33,430 nucleotides of DNA from a virus. Made by a program: the position numbers and the translations under genes. Below, piece by piece: positions 13,622 through 25,091 of this stretch; positions within the stretch are counted from its first letter, which is position 1, and every line of letters starts with the position of its first letter. Below the pieces are notes generated by a model. It was not told the DNA's origin, did not search any database, and saw nothing but the letters and a program-made list of their open reading frames with translations. The DNA lies in the IMG/VR virus record IMGVR_UViG_3300044641_003513, positions 1 to 33,430 of that record. The stretch is one strand, 5' to 3'.

Positions 13622-13943
13622 TCTTCCTCTCAACGTACCACAGGAGGATGCCGTCACGGTCGTGAGGCATACCTTCGTAACGCTCAAGGCGGCGCTTAAT
13701 CATAGACGCCGTAGTGCAGGAGATGTCGAAGCGATGGGACGCCTCCTTCAGGTGGATGCCCTCGTCCAGCGCCTTGCTCACCTGATAGAGAAGATCAGGC
13801 TTCTCAATCTGGTTGCGGGATGGCTCCTTCTTAGACTTCACGACGACATCAGGAATCTCATCCCACTTCCAGCCCTTCGTATGCTTGGCTAGGATGTGGC
13901 GGATAGAGGTCATCGTCTCCGACACATCATATCCTAGGCTCAT
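13584..13943 (-). CDS. Small HTH-type DNA-binding protein (119 aa)
   Basis: Residues about 52-88 form a likely helix-turn-helix: LLYQVSKALDEGIHLKEASH followed by ISCTTASMIKRRLERY. The N-terminal 45 residues contain a Trp-rich bit (KGWKWDEIPDVVV), and the C-terminus is basic (RKNAKAKAR). It probably binds DNA, as a regulator or as a partner of the HNH nuclease. Its start overlaps the stop of the DUF6378-like gene (ATGA), and its 3' end overlaps the HNH gene by 38 nt. No specific family is recognised. Confidence 0.65.
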   Translation of the reverse strand: MSLGYDVSETMTSIRHILAKHTKGWKWDEIPDVVVKSKKEPSRNQIEKPDLLYQVSKALDEGIHLKEASHRFDISCTTASMIKRRLERYEGMPHDRDGILLWYVERKNAKAKARTDASR

Positions 13944-14242
13944 ACCTCATCCCCTCTCCGGGGAGGCAGGCCCTTCTGAATCCAGCTCAGGCAATGGAGG
14001 TAGCCGTGCGCGTCGATGAGGTTGTCATCCTTCTGGCGGTGGCTATCCCGGCGCAGCTTGAGGGCCACCATCATACGGGCCACATCCTCGGCGGTGATGC
14101 TTTGGTGCAGCTTTGCGTTGATGAGGCCAGACCACATCATAGCAATGCCCTCAAAGTCTTCGCGGGGATTGCCGTAGGCTTCGTTGCGGTCGCCAAGGAT
14201 GAGGTCTAACGAGGCCTCAGAGAAGTTGGGTGAGGTGTTCAT
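13940..14242 (-). CDS. DUF6378-like phage protein
   Basis: This 100-aa helical protein has the pattern I associate with DUF6378: LILGDRNEAYGNPREDFEGI, then a conserved Trp (MMWSGL), then ITAEDVARMMVALKLRRD and KDDNLIDAHGYLHC. These proteins are common in phages and resemble all-alpha nucleotide-pyrophosphohydrolase-like helices, but activity is unproven. It sits between the helicase and an HTH gene, overlapping both by 4 nt, in the DNA-transaction operon. Family assignment is from memory of the motif. Confidence 0.75.
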   Translation of the reverse strand: MNTSPNFSEASLDLILGDRNEAYGNPREDFEGIAMMWSGLINAKLHQSITAEDVARMMVALKLRRDSHRQKDDNLIDAHGYLHCLSWIQKGLPPRRGDEV

Positions 14243-17753: not shown

Positions 17754-17959
17754 GACGCCTCCTCGATGGCATTGTCAATGCAGGAAGACCGGATGCCCTT
17801 CTTGCGGTGGTAGTTGGTTAGCACGCGCTGGTTGTGCAGCTTGCGCAACAGTTCCTGTTCACGCTCAGCCCACTCTTTGCGAGTGAGGTGTTCAAGGTAT
17901 CCCTTATTGGACACCAGCTTTACCCCAAAGCACGCTAGCAGTTTGTTTATTGTGTTCAT
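17750..17959 (-). CDS. Small basic protein (69 aa)
   Basis: The protein reads MNTINKLLACFGVKLVSNKG, then a charged helix with EWAEREQELLRKLHNQR, then HRKKGIRSSCIDNAIEEAS. I use the ATG at 17959; a TTG two codons earlier is possible. The first part overlaps the C-terminal end of the lysozyme-like gene by 56 nt. No family is recognised. It may bind nucleic acid, given the helix and basic residues. Confidence 0.5.
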   Translation of the reverse strand: MNTINKLLACFGVKLVSNKGYLEHLTRKEWAEREQELLRKLHNQRVLTNYHRKKGIRSSCIDNAIEEAS

Positions 17960-18326
17960 AGGCAATCATTTCGATGCGCCGCCCATAGGCCAGCGTGTCA
18001 TCCTTCTTGTGGCCCCTCGGGCCACCCTTGTGCACCCGCGCCAGCGTCTGCACATCCCCAGTCGCCCACGCCCTCGGGGCGTAGCGCTTCATATACCCCT
18101 CGACCACTAGCTTGGCCTTCTGCAAGTCGTCGCAGTCGGACCAGCTTCCACCGACGTTGCTATCCTCCCAATAGGCCCTGCTGATTTGCAGCGGGCCTCG
18201 ATACTCACCCCAAGACACACGCCCCAACCTCCCTCCGCTCTCAACTTGATGGAGCGCGACCCAGAACGCCGCGCTGGGAGCAGCCAAGCATTGGCCTGAA
18301 AGCAGAAGGAAGAGGAGCGTGCGCAT
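17904..18326 (-). CDS. Secreted lysozyme-like muramidase (i-type/destabilase-like pattern)
   Basis: The 140-aa protein starts with a hydrophobic signal-like segment (MRTLLFLLLSGQCLA). The catalytic-type Glu lies in LHQVESGG (Glu29), followed by GPLQISRAYWEDS and, further on, VVEGYMKRYAP and LARVHKGGPRG. The G-(P/Y)-QI-YW, YM-RY and R-H-GGP-G order matches invertebrate-type lysozymes (destabilase family) and their phage/bacterial relatives, which cleave peptidoglycan. Export by the Sec system would put it in the periplasm at lysis. It is unusual that it lies in the replication operon instead of the late one. Assignment is by motif only. Confidence 0.7.
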   Translation of the reverse strand: MRTLLFLLLSGQCLAAPSAAFWVALHQVESGGRLGRVSWGEYRGPLQISRAYWEDSNVGGSWSDCDDLQKAKLVVEGYMKRYAPRAWATGDVQTLARVHKGGPRGHKKDDTLAYGRRIEMIAYEHNKQTASVLWGKAGVQ

Positions 18327-21132: not shown

Positions 21133-21411
21133 ATGAAGCCCTCCCCCCGTACCACCCGCCAATACGTACTGCCCGCCTACTGGGCGTCCTACCTCGTCAA
21201 TGGCGATGCCAGCGGCCTTGACCCCATCGAACGCGAAGCGGTCGATGCCTTCCTGGACAAGTGGGGCCATCGCCACGACGAATGCCTCTCCGTCTCACGC
21301 GAGTTCGTGGGCCGCAGCCAACATTGCGGCCTGATTGCCGACGTTTGCGTGTACATCTTCTCATTTTCCCCCTCTTCGGGGGTTGCTCGCCCGGCTATGG
21401 GCCGCGCCTGA
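21133..21411 (+). CDS. DUF6926-like small protein (92 aa)
   Basis: The core YVLPAYWASYLVNGDASGLD, followed by PIEREAVDAFLDKW, a VSREF segment and GLIADVCVYIFSF, matches a short phage/plasmid domain I know as DUF6926: LPAYWA-LINGD-SGL, then E-VS-E--F--H-AG--A-DV--YTF. The last 13 residues after the usual end are Pro/Gly-rich and coincide with a CCCCC/GGGGG hairpin at 21368-21382, so they may be a recent extension. I start at the ATG at 21133; the frame extends upstream without protein character. There is no Shine-Dalgarno sequence. Function is unknown. Confidence 0.6.
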   Translation: MKPSPRTTRQYVLPAYWASYLVNGDASGLDPIEREAVDAFLDKWGHRHDECLSVSREFVGRSQHCGLIADVCVYIFSFSPSSGVARPAMGRA

Positions 21412-21439
21412 CCGGCGCGTGACTACGCGACACACGACA

Positions 21440-21700
21440 ATGAAAGCTAAATACAAGCTGAGCGCCACCGAGCGCGCCAACTACAACGCCTACAAGGAAT
21501 ACGACAACGCCCAACGGGCGCTGTTCCGCCTCGCCTACGGGCTCGGCTCCAACGCCATCGAAACCATCGACGAGGCTGGCGCCTACGCGACCTACACCAA
21601 GCTGTGCGACTTGATGCGCGCCCACTTGAAGAAGAAAGAGAGCACTTGGGACGCCATCTGCCTCGCCAATCCCAACGACAACGACTGCATCGGCGCCTAA
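21440..21700 (+). CDS. Small helical protein (86 aa), unknown
   Basis: The protein begins MKAKYKLSATERANYNAYKE and is helical, with YDNAQRALFRLAYGLGSNAI, a TYTKLCDLMRAHLKKKEST segment and an Asn/Asp-rich end (ANPNDNDCIGA). No family is recognised. I start at the ATG at 21440 after a non-coding-looking frame extension. It lies between the DUF6926-like gene and the amidoligase on the same strand, with an 18-nt gap before the latter. Confidence 0.6.
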   Translation: MKAKYKLSATERANYNAYKEYDNAQRALFRLAYGLGSNAIETIDEAGAYATYTKLCDLMRAHLKKKESTWDAICLANPNDNDCIGA

Positions 21701-21718
21701 CCTACTATCACCCTACCT

Positions 21719-22858
21719 ATGAAAACCATCACTTGGTATTCCATCCGTCACCACCTCGGCACCATTATCCAGCACTCTGGACTTGTTTGGTCCCCTACCT
21801 CGGGCCTTCCAGCCGACGAGCACACCGGCATATGCGCCGCCAACTACATTGCAGACCTAATGGACACAAGTTCGTATCCCGTTGCATTGCGAGAGGCGAA
21901 CCAGCAAATGGTTTTCGTGCCAGATTGCCTATTTCGCAAAAACACGCCCAAGCGATTCCGGCGACTGCGCGGTCGGGTCACCAATCCAAAGACACTTTGT
22001 ATGGCACCCAACAATTGCAGTAGCATACGCAACTATCGGGTCCGACGCTTCAATGACAGCGTACCGGACCCCCTACGCAAGCCATTCACAGAGCGCGTGT
22101 ACGAATTGCTGTCGAGCATCCCGCTTGCCCCGGGCAAGCAGTTCTCGTCGCTATGGTCCCGCAACACAAGCTGCGATCTCTACAACTACCAACACGCAGT
22201 AGGCTTAGAGTTCGAATCTTACGGGTTAATCGAGCGCAAGCAACTGATCAAAGCACTTCCGATATGGACACGGGTCGCAAGTGACGGATCAATTCGCCCT
22301 CCCGGCGACGCACAGGGCCACGAGATTCGCGTCCTGCTCGACCGAGCAGTTGCGGAACCCCGTCTGTTCAACCTGTGCAAGCGCTTTGCGACGCTTGGCC
22401 TGCGCGTCAACAAGTCGTGCGGGCTGCACATACACCTCGACGCACGAAGCCTGTCATACTCAGAGGTCGTTGCCCGCGCAAAGGTGATGGACAAGTGGCT
22501 GCACGCCCTAATGGAACTGCTCCCAAGCTCGCGTCGAGACAACACCTACTGCAAGTGGGGCGTTTCCCCTCACGACCGCTACCGCGCCGTTAACGTGCTC
22601 TCGTGGACTGCGCATAAGACCATCGAAGTTCGATGCGGCTCTGCCACCCTAGACTACACAAAAGTCCTCAGTTGGCTCAGACTCGTCGAACTAATCCGTG
22701 CTGTATCTCGCGGCCCCAAGGCTGGCTCGTGTATCGCCACCCTTGAGCAGCTTCCGCTGCCCGCGCACGACCTCGCATTCTGGCGAGCCCGCCATCGAGA
22801 ACTCAATCCAGCGCAATACACCACTGCTGCTACCGACACGACCACCGACAGCGAATAA
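21719..22858 (+). CDS. Amidoligase (glutamine-synthetase-like fold, COOH-NH2 ligase type)
   Basis: The C-terminal two-thirds of this 379-aa protein carry the amidoligase set: VGLEFE (161-166), SDGSI (188-192), GHEIR (200-204), CGLHIHLD (234-241), RYRAVN (287-292) and TIEVR (301-305). In this family, acidic residues and His bind Mg-ATP, and an acyl phosphate is attacked by an amine to make an amide or peptide bond. The N-terminal 155 residues are an extra domain that I do not recognise. The gene is followed by a class II amidotransferase 16 nt later. Such pairs are known in phages, notably the phiEco32 type (established knowledge). The substrate here is unknown. Confidence 0.8.
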   Translation: MKTITWYSIRHHLGTIIQHSGLVWSPTSGLPADEHTGICAANYIADLMDTSSYPVALREANQQMVFVPDCLFRKNTPKRFRRLRGRVTNPKTLCMAPNNCSSIRNYRVRRFNDSVPDPLRKPFTERVYELLSSIPLAPGKQFSSLWSRNTSCDLYNYQHAVGLEFESYGLIERKQLIKALPIWTRVASDGSIRPPGDAQGHEIRVLLDRAVAEPRLFNLCKRFATLGLRVNKSCGLHIHLDARSLSYSEVVARAKVMDKWLHALMELLPSSRRDNTYCKWGVSPHDRYRAVNVLSWTAHKTIEVRCGSATLDYTKVLSWLRLVELIRAVSRGPKAGSCIATLEQLPLPAHDLAFWRARHRELNPAQYTTAATDTTTDSE

Positions 22859-22874
22859 TCCCACTATCACTACA

Positions 22875-23684
22875 ATGTGTAAGCTTCTCTTCCTCACGGG
22901 ACACAAGCCCTCCCAGCGTAACTCCATCATCCGCCACGCTTGGCGCTATTTCGAGCGCACTGGCGAACGCGATGGCTTCGGCGCAGCGTGGATTTCACGC
23001 TCTGGCAAGCTCGCCCACATCCGCTCATCCAACCCGCTCCTCACCAATCGCCTCACCGACTGGTCGGAAGGCTGGCACGACCAAGTGGGCTACAACGAGC
23101 CCTCCGATGGCTCCGCCCTCATCATCCACGGACGCAAGGCCACTTGTGGCAAGTCCCTCGACAACACGCATCCAATGCTAGACGTAGAGCAAGCTCTCGT
23201 CCACAACGGCATCGTTGAGTCGGACGACTACAAGAACTCGTCCACCACCTGTGACTCGGAGCTTCTCCTCCGCGCTATGCAGGACAAGGGCACCGCAGGC
23301 CTTGCCTCCATCGAAGGCTACTTCGCCTTCGCCCTTCTCGATGCCAAGGCCAAGCGCCTCACCATCGTCAAGGACGACCAAGCCAATCTAGTCTCAGCCC
23401 GCATCCCGGGCTATGGCTACGCATTCGGCACCACTAGGGAAGCCGTAGCTTGCGCCACGCCCCTCGATTCATCCCCAGTCAAGGACTTCACCGCCCTTGA
23501 GTGGTCCACCCGCAAGCCCCACCGTCCCTTGTCCATCTCCAACTTCACCAAGAAGGAGAAGGTATACATTGCGCCTCAGTCCACCAACTGGCGCAGCGCC
23601 AAGGAATACTACGGGTCCATCGAGCGCACCAACGGCAGCACCCATCACGCCGCCGCGTCGTACAACGACCTATTCAACCAGTGA
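22875..23684 (+). CDS. Class II glutamine amidotransferase
   Basis: The 269-aa protein begins MCKLLFLTG, placing Cys2 as the N-terminal nucleophile once Met is removed. It has the family motifs RDGFGAAW (32-39), IIHGRKATCG (83-92), NTHPM (97-101), VHNGIVE (109-115), CDSELLLRA (126-134) and GYFAFALLD (148-156). It should split glutamine to give ammonia. There is no fused synthase domain, so the ammonia must be used by a partner, most simply the amidoligase encoded just upstream. ACTATCAC precedes the ATG and no Shine-Dalgarno sequence is seen. The C-terminal 80 residues are less conserved. Confidence 0.88.
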   Translation: MCKLLFLTGHKPSQRNSIIRHAWRYFERTGERDGFGAAWISRSGKLAHIRSSNPLLTNRLTDWSEGWHDQVGYNEPSDGSALIIHGRKATCGKSLDNTHPMLDVEQALVHNGIVESDDYKNSSTTCDSELLLRAMQDKGTAGLASIEGYFAFALLDAKAKRLTIVKDDQANLVSARIPGYGYAFGTTREAVACATPLDSSPVKDFTALEWSTRKPHRPLSISNFTKKEKVYIAPQSTNWRSAKEYYGSIERTNGSTHHAAASYNDLFNQ

Positions 23685-23842
23685 AGCACAACCTACTCGG
23701 CGGCTTTGCCGACTTCGCCCTCGGCGCCCTAGCAGCCCTATTCACCATCTGTAGCGTTCTGCTCTACCTCATCCTCTACGGCGGGCCTGACAAGCCCACC
23801 AGACCCAAGCCCAAAAAGGGGCACGAGGACTCACAGCAATAG
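23681..23842 (+). CDS. Small single-pass membrane protein, GTG start (53 aa)
   Basis: GTG at 23681 overlaps the amidotransferase stop as GTGA. The protein reads VKHNLLGGFADFALGALAAL, then FTICSVLLYLILYGG and a charged tail DKPTRPKPKKGHEDSQQ. About 30 residues form one membrane helix with a basic cytoplasmic end. It is the last gene before the terminator at 23872. It could anchor the amidoligase system at the membrane, but that is only a positional guess. Confidence 0.6.
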   Translation: MKHNLLGGFADFALGALAALFTICSVLLYLILYGGPDKPTRPKPKKGHEDSQQ

Positions 23843-23871: not shown

Positions 23872-23901
23872 AAGCCCTAGGCTCACCCCTAGGGCTTTTT
23901 T
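23872..23901 (+). terminator. Intrinsic terminator of the accessory operon
   Basis: AAGCCCTAG and CTAGGGCTT form a perfect 9-bp stem around an 8-nt loop, and a run of six T (23896-23901) starts within the stem's 3' end. It lies 30 nt after the last stop codon of the amidoligase operon. Confidence 0.9.
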
Positions 23902-24171: not shown

Positions 24172-24747
24172 ATGGATGTGGATGTTGACAAAACTGGGCA
24201 GTATTCCCTACACAGGGGTATGAGTGAACGAGCTGCCATCAGGAAGGAAGTGGCCAAGGCCATAGTGGCGGCTGGGGAGAATGGCCGTAGCATTGAGGCG
24301 CGTCAGCCTGAGCGGGCGGCTAGGTTGTTGGAGTTGATGGCTGAGGGGAAAAGCTGGAAGAGCATTGTGCGTGACGAGGGGGTGGACTGGTACACGCTTG
24401 TGGGGTTGCGGGCTCGGCATAAGGGCTTGATAGAGAAGCGGAAGGAGATTGTGGCGCAGGATGCGATGGAGCTGATTGAGGGGGCTAGGATGCTCCAGCA
24501 GGAGAAGATGAAGATGCTGGCGGAGGACGAGGGAGCCCTTAAGCGTGTGAACATCAGGGACTTGGCTATGAGCTACGGCATCTATGCCGATAAGTTCTTT
24601 ATGGCTACGGAAGGGAACAAGGTGACGGTGGAGCACAGGAGTGGAGCTCCCAGCCTTGAGGATGCAATGAAGGCGATTGAGGAGGCCAAGGCCAAGCTGA
24701 AGGCTGGCAGCATTGAGGTGGTGGCCAAGCCAGTGGAGGAAGTTTAA
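24172..24747 (+). CDS. Putative terminase small subunit
   Basis: The 191-aa protein has an HTH-like helical block (residues 40-85: PERAARLLELMAEGKSWKSI, then VDWYTLVGLRARHKGLIE), a helical oligomer-like middle and the end block MSYGIYADKFFMATEGNKVT, followed by APSLEDAMKAIEEAKAKL. Small terminase subunits bind the packaging start site through such a domain. Its place two genes before the large subunit supports this. The start could be 24172, or 24220 (MSERAAIRKEV), which lies just after ACAGGGGT; I keep the longer form. Confidence 0.65.
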   Translation: MDVDVDKTGQYSLHRGMSERAAIRKEVAKAIVAAGENGRSIEARQPERAARLLELMAEGKSWKSIVRDEGVDWYTLVGLRARHKGLIEKRKEIVAQDAMELIEGARMLQQEKMKMLAEDEGALKRVNIRDLAMSYGIYADKFFMATEGNKVTVEHRSGAPSLEDAMKAIEEAKAKLKAGSIEVVAKPVEEV

Positions 24748-25091
24748 TGACCGACCAAGAGTGGGTGGATGCCCGGGCCAAAGTGTTGAGCGACCCTGAC
24801 AGGCCGCTGAATGAGGGCTTTCTGATGGCCCAGAAGGAGTGGAAGTGGAGTGCCCGCCGGGCCATCTGGGGGCACAGCTACTACCATTGGACGTACAAGC
24901 GCTACCTGTACGAGTTCGACATCATCCCGTTTGTGAGGCTTCAGGTGCGTCGTAGGCACAACTGGGAGGCGGAACACCTGAAGATGGAGGCGCCTGCGGA
25001 CCTCACGCTGCGGGTGTCCTTTGGTTGCTTTGGCGCAGAGGGCGGGTTTTCCGTTACGACGGGAATGCGTAAGTTCCACTATGGCGCTTAG
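24747..25091 (+). CDS. Unknown 114-aa protein in the packaging operon
   Basis: The start overlaps the previous stop (TAATG), and the end overlaps the large terminase start by 11 nt. The protein is rich in Trp, Tyr, Arg and His: EWKWSARRAIWGHSYYHWTY, then KRYLYEFDIIPFVRLQVRRR. A beta-like tail LTLRVSFGCFGAEGGFSVTT follows. No family is recognised. Its place between the terminase subunits suggests a packaging accessory. Confidence 0.6.
   Translation: MTDQEWVDARAKVLSDPDRPLNEGFLMAQKEWKWSARRAIWGHSYYHWTYKRYLYEFDIIPFVRLQVRRRHNWEAEHLKMEAPADLTLRVSFGCFGAEGGFSVTTGMRKFHYGA

Follow-up and report, generated by a model that had tools for sequence, protein, structure and literature searches.

We describe a three-gene unit of a marine phage in which a conserved amidoligase core is preceded by an exchangeable N-terminal domain. 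As judged from sequence comparison, related phages swap the first ~150 residues of the amidoligase as a cassette, an exchange suggesting that this N-domain may select the target of the enzyme. The unit also encodes a class II glutamine amidotransferase (GATase) and, probably, a short membrane protein coupled to it. An earlier note, made from the DNA letters alone, had described an amidoligase-amidotransferase operon that could tag a protein, a cell-wall precursor or a small molecule; its observation is confirmed and its interpretation partly supported. The N-domain exchange and the coupled miniprotein are each apparently new, being undescribed in the open-licence papers searched.

Genome setting of the unit

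The window, by which we mean the whole stretch of DNA analysed, is an IMG/VR virus record (IMGVR_UViG_3300044641_003513) of 33,430 bases with 59% GC and no tRNA genes along its length. Replication genes extend leftward, starting at about 20.2 kb. The rightward genes start at 20.5 kb with ORFs of at most 168, 118 and 121 aa and continue through the amidoligase, the GATase and the membrane miniprotein to a hairpin, 3' of which lie the terminase and head genes. The features of the region are as follows.

21335-21700, + strand: upstream ORF of 121 aa, start uncertain, overlapping the preceding ORF
21703-21718, + strand: leader TACTATCACCCTACCT, immediately 5' of the amidoligase start, without a Shine-Dalgarno-like sequence
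21719-22858, + strand: amidoligase gene, 379 aa, PF12224, predicted glutamine-synthetase (GS) fold (family match and AlphaFold model)
21719-22174, + strand: N-terminal domain, about residues 1-152, allelic cassette without a recognised family
22187-22858, + strand: catalytic GS-fold part, from about residue 157 (invariant residues; PDB matches spanning 156-379)
22862-22874, + strand: leader CACTATCACTACA, 5' of the GATase start, resembling the amidoligase leader
22875-23684, + strand: class II GATase, 269 aa, Cys2 nucleophile (GATase_6 match; invariant residues)
23681-23842, + strand: probable membrane miniprotein of 53 aa with a single predicted transmembrane helix; its GTG start codon overlaps the GATase stop
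23872-23897, + strand: terminator-like hairpin of 10 pairs followed by TTTTGTT, closing the unit ahead of the terminase genes

Most genes of the window lack a Shine-Dalgarno-like leader, and the leaders of the amidoligase and GATase are of a CTATCAC-CTAC type. The 121-aa upstream ORF is kept in the related contigs L003, L006 and L009 and mostly absent from L004, L005 and L007, and is accessory. Elsewhere in the window, a 140-aa protein among the leftward genes (17907-18326, - strand) exceeds the Pfam threshold for Destabilase, a lysozyme-type family (1.7e-6), and is a possible endolysin, while a 100-aa protein (13943-14242, - strand) matches DUF6378 strongly (5.5e-20). Between the small-terminase and large-terminase genes lies a 114-aa ORF (24747-25091) that is identical in L007 and L009 and has no counterpart in G001, G002, L006 or the phage C75C1, and so appears as an accessory gene within the packaging operon. 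None of the unit's five proteins matched a PADLOC model, and a defence system of the PADLOC type was rejected on this ground.

The amidoligase and its fold

The amidoligase matches PF12224 (Amidoligase_2) with 43 bits against a cut-off of 22 (E 6.3e-11) and phrog_2443 with 4.3e-14. The four motifs that the earlier note had called intact are all present (GLEFE at 162-166, GHEIR at 200-204, CGLHIHLD at 234-241 and TIEVR at 301-305) and fall on invariant or at least 90% conserved columns of an alignment of 51 viral amidoligases. The invariant residues in this alignment are D189, S191, E202, N231, G235, H237, H239, R272, R287 and Y288; E164, E166, C234, E303, R305, K315 and others are at least 90% conserved. 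Loss of catalytic residues would have spoken against an active enzyme, and in the alignments both the amidoligase and the GATase retain theirs. The E-x-E, G-x-H-x-H and E-x-R motifs would correspond to the metal- and nucleotide-binding positions of glutamine synthetase, a putative mapping.

An AlphaFold model built from the 51 sequences has a mean pLDDT of 85.6, with values above 90 over most of residues 160-365; it was used instead of an earlier model from seven close sequences, whose catalytic part reached a pLDDT of only 45. When the model was compared with the PDB, the matches covered residues ~157-379; glutamine synthetases were the best (Z 12.9 over 209 residues, match labelled VIA), the glutamate-cysteine ligase YbdK was among the best (Z 12.2), and all 50 of the PDB matches listed were GS-fold entries. 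Foldseek alone gave a weaker result (E 1.3e-3), and a sequence search of the PDB with the amidoligase profile returned nothing credible. On the strength of the model, the catalytic part of the predicted structure has the glutamine-synthetase fold, as the earlier note had proposed. The protein ends in an acidic tail, TTTDSE (22841-22855), preceded by a linker that varies in relatives; in the distant relatives L043-L053 the tail is mostly TESE, TETE, AENE or EVE, with AAA in L048.

The amidotransferase and the pairing of the two genes

The GATase begins with the 'MC' start at 22875 and matches the Pfam families GATase_6 (6.8e-13, over the cut-off) and GATase_7 (1.9e-7). Residues C2, R87, N97, H99-P100, H110-N111-G112 and D127 are invariant in 11 phage GATases, so that the claim of intact Cys2-type motifs holds, and so does that of a stand-alone class II enzyme beside a GS-fold amidoligase. 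From these residues the protein is a class II (Ntn) amidotransferase with a predicted glutaminase function. Its identity to relatives is 93-99%. Searches further afield were negative: tblastn of the phage collection gave no match at 1e-3, the genome collection searched with the GATase alignment no match, and a PDB sequence search no match at 0.01.

In each of the seven related contigs covering this region the two genes are adjacent, and both frames are open and conserved; the ORFs are therefore not a chance occurrence, and decay of the pair is ruled out by the open frames and the retained residues. For the wider distribution, searching for the pattern with the alignment of close relatives added nothing to the eight loci already found, and the diverse alignment A4 reached further. 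Among the best 80 of 443 confirmed viral amidoligase loci, ranked by closeness to the window protein, 73 had at least 700 bases downstream, and in 55 of these the GATase is the next gene on the same strand; this proportion of 75% is an upper-side figure, because the loci were ranked by closeness and kinship among them was ignored. In one distant locus (L047:6520-8372) the cassette is doubled: directly after the pair come another, divergent amidoligase-like ORF (PF12224, 0.0086, below the cut-off) and another ORF resembling a class II GATase (GATase_4, 7.4e-4).

The pair is not unusual for phages, and in this respect the earlier note is overstated. It is already known in many of them, including OM43, LUZ24-like and PSA-HP1-type phages: PMC10580990 records both Pfam families in OM43 phages in culture as well as in more than 30 marine viral genomes, and the two genes are annotated side by side in Arthrobacter phages. 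Because of these published and annotated cases we regard the pair as one of a known kind.

The N-terminal domain as an allelic cassette

The N-terminal extension of the amidoligase comprises about 150-157 aa, close to the 155 aa of the unrecognised domain described in the earlier note, and a Pfam search of it gave no match, helix-turn-helix families included. An HMM of the domain, run against the other viral amidoligases, found nothing outside the close group. Structure-search matches of the whole amidoligase model fell on the catalytic domain; in the N-domain itself the model predicts, with fair confidence, helices at 6-17 and 34-48, a hairpin at 54-68 and a helix at 78-88.

Close relatives fall into two groups by their N-terminus, allele A (the window and L003) and allele B (L004-L009). 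Between the window and L006, DNA identity is 92-100% from 21395 to about 21750, drops to 47-69% over 21755-22175 and returns to 87-100% beyond, with sharp boundaries, and the N-domain proteins share 47% identity. The comparison with G002 gives the same picture (47% in the N-part, 97% in the catalytic part), while most other proteins shared with the window are 91-100% identical. In L004, L006 and L007, dS is 1.0-1.1 and dN about 0.5 in the N-part, against a dS of 0.13-0.19 and a dN of 0.025-0.047 in the catalytic part. L008 and L009 have an equal dS in both parts (~1.1-1.2) and a dN of 0.44-0.55 in the N-part against 0.12-0.16 in the catalytic part, an amino-acid change three to four times higher at equal dS. 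Allele A is found in L003 despite a terminase only 63% identical to that of the window, and allele B in L009 with a terminase 99% identical; the alleles therefore do not correspond to terminase relatedness or to the rest of the genome. Further out, in L043-L053, whose catalytic parts are 41-57% identical, no similarity to the window can be detected in the sequence 5' of the catalytic part.

It is quite possible, even if we doubt it, that this variation reflects ordinary mosaicism of phages, the breakpoint falling at the domain boundary by chance and the domain being under weak constraint, and has nothing to do with targeting. Only two main alleles are sampled, and these genomes contain further variable islands (around 4.2-6.5, 17.2-17.6, 20.6-21.1 and 24.7-25.1 kb), which makes the N-part one hot spot among several. 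Against this, the N-domain in L006 is replaced while both of its sides are conserved, and the N-domains of allele B differ strongly among themselves yet retain a set of invariant residues. We judged this possibility separately, because it is compatible with any reading of the target.

Several contigs end within this region. L016 and L019 start nine bases 5' of the GATase start, L015 terminates inside the amidoligase N-part, and the first bases of L021 likewise lie at the junction of the two genes or in the N-part; such ends fit assembly breaks at a gene that varies in the population. The amidoligases of L023, L024, L026, L028 and L029, of which L024 and L026 are Arthrobacter phages, carry N-terminal extensions of 60-85 aa that are helix-turn-helix-like, with weak Pfam matches at best.

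A membrane miniprotein coupled to the amidotransferase

The earlier note had the operon end in a membrane protein. The membrane protein is real, and its coordinates need correction: the terminal gene is probably the 53-aa ORF at 23681-23842, judged by its start and by that of its counterparts in the relatives, and not one of 113 aa. Much of the 113-aa reading (23501-23842) overlaps the GATase in another frame, and the relatives start with ATG at the 23681 overlap, for which reasons it was rejected. The start of the miniprotein lies within the GATase stop (GTGA in the window, ATGA in relatives), and its hydropathy is 2.49. One-helix miniproteins of unrelated sequence are found at the GATase stop in seven of 32 GATase clusters, compared with 19 of 369 control ORF ends (5%; p = 0.002), which is moderate evidence because the controls, ends of other long ORFs, include ORFs that are not genes. 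Many amidoligase-GATase pairs have no miniprotein. Where it is coupled to the GATase, it is a candidate third component that would indicate where the enzyme works.

Proposed function and alternatives

In the mechanism that we propose, the GATase would free ammonia from glutamine and the ammonia would pass between the two enzymes. The GS-fold amidoligase, with ATP and a divalent metal, would activate a carboxylate and couple the ammonia, or another amine, to it, forming an amide. The N-terminal ~150 residues might select the target or serve to evade host factors, and the miniprotein may localise the enzyme at the inner membrane. As target, a carboxylate of the host envelope would be likeliest, for example in a peptidoglycan peptide or precursor, and its amidation could exclude competing phages or time lysis; this target and superinfection exclusion are proposals from the literature. 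Alteration of the envelope or cell wall against superinfection is put forward for such phage sets, the phiEco32 type included, in PMC10580990, PMC5498523 and PMC11318856, whose statements on the subject all cite Iyer et al. 2009. The open-licence literature searched contained no experiment showing peptidoglycan changed by such phage gene sets and no reported substrate of an amidoligase-GATase pair.

Taken as a whole, the reading of the unit as one that amidates a carboxylate, most plausibly in the host envelope, with the N-domain as a targeting or evasion module, is the one we lean towards, tentatively and at somewhat less than an even chance. The family matches, the retained catalytic residues, the predicted fold, the frequent pairing, the like-placed genes of C75C1, the published proposals and the kindred chemistry of MurT/GatD all favour it, and the miniprotein coupled to the GATase speaks for the envelope. 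The apparently incomplete phiEco32-type set and the many pairs that have no miniprotein count against it. What also sits oddly with it is the N-domain itself: an exchangeable domain implies a partner that varies between hosts or strains, and the peptidoglycan peptide hardly varies, so that a fast-changing, exchanged domain is odd for a nearly invariant substrate.

A partner of that kind would suit a protein-modifying system, in which the N-domain docks on a particular protein of the host or phage and the ligase amidates that protein, or joins an amine to it, at an acidic side chain or the C-terminus. The elevated dN of the N-part in L008 and L009 is what a changing protein partner would lead one to expect, and related phages place unrelated-looking sequences before the same catalytic domain. 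But relaxed constraint would raise dN too, and in several lineages the membrane miniprotein points to the envelope instead. We consider a protein target somewhat unlikely. It is the miniprotein and the exchangeable N-domain together that make the envelope and a protein the two main readings and place metabolism and nucleic acid lower.

The pair might also be a metabolic helper for making or recycling small amides or peptides, such as gamma-glutamyl compounds, and have no macromolecular target. YbdK, which ranks high among the structural matches, acts on small molecules; genes for gamma-glutamyl cyclotransferase (GGACT) lie alongside the pair in C75C1 and in Arthrobacter phages, and PMC10945688 proposes a role in nitrogen metabolism for a similar set. 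However, a search of four records of the group, all of them fragments, turned up no GGACT, and neither a swappable N-domain nor a membrane miniprotein is easily reconciled with soluble metabolism, which makes this role improbable. Least credible of all is nucleic-acid modification, with a modified base or a substrate bound to nucleic acid being amidated or decorated by the ligase: several related phage amidoligases do have short helix-turn-helix-like N-termini (Pfam 0.0065 and 0.04, below the cut-off), but the N-domain of the window has no such match and no base-modification gene (hydroxymethylase, thymidylate-synthase-like or glycosyltransferase) is found among the window ORFs.

Comparison with known systems

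The OM43 phages MEP401 and MEP402 and the more than 30 marine viral genomes of the same study (PMC10580990) also combine PF12224 with PF13522, and cell-wall modification is proposed for them there. They belong to a different lineage, and the sections of that study on these genes describe neither N-domain exchange nor a miniprotein. The phiEco32/LUZ24/PSA-HP1-type cassette (PMC5498523, PMC3890496) resembles the window in having PF12224 and a class II GATase near replication genes, and holds in addition an ATP-grasp ligase, a gamma-glutamyl cyclotransferase and a second amidoligase, which were not found among the window ORFs. In a record that may be incomplete, Pfam detects one PF12224 protein and no ATP-grasp ligase; as GGACT was likewise not found in the four fragmentary records, the phiEco32-type set appears incomplete here.

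In the Arthrobacter phages Salgado, Waltz and Ottawa the amidoligase is directly followed by a class II GATase, as in the window, and the amidoligase N-terminus is shorter (about 65-85 aa) and weakly helix-turn-helix-like. Unlike the window, Waltz has a cyclotransferase gene immediately 5' of the amidoligase, and so has Salgado (PMC5513430). The nearest complete phage, C75C1 (OQ984151; terminase 40% and major capsid protein 57% identical), has its amidoligase and GATase in the corresponding place of the genome, between the replication genes and the terminase. Its amidoligase has a short N-terminus, lies on the opposite strand and is 24% identical over only a quarter of the protein, and its GATase appears fused to a GGACT domain, unlike the stand-alone enzyme of the window. 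The C75C1 protein annotated as a gamma-glutamyl cyclotransferase (L022:20149-21045) starts with MC and matches GGACT with 2.7e-21 and GATase_4 with 9.4e-5, just below the cut-off.

Glutamine synthetase (Z 12.9) and YbdK (Z 12.2) share the predicted fold of the catalytic part at a sequence identity of 7-16%. MurT/GatD of Staphylococcus aureus amidates the glutamate of peptidoglycan (PMC3267633). The likeness to the window pair is in the way of working, an amidation driven by ATP in which a partner glutaminase supplies the ammonia, and we claim no homology. MurT/GatD has a Mur-ligase fold and a glutaminase of a different class from the window GATase.

By analogy, the unit might be a re-targetable enzyme that modifies proteins or the envelope, with a conserved core, an exchanged recognition domain at the N-terminus and the miniprotein as an anchor, and would then apply the same chemistry to different host targets; in this full form we hold the idea to be unlikely. 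If the N-domain does set the target, phages would re-aim a conserved chemistry through domain exchange, and comparing the partners or products of both alleles would directly reveal the substrate. A precedent for such exchange is found in type I restriction enzymes, whose specificity domains are exchanged between relatives in the way proposed here for the N-domain of the amidoligase.
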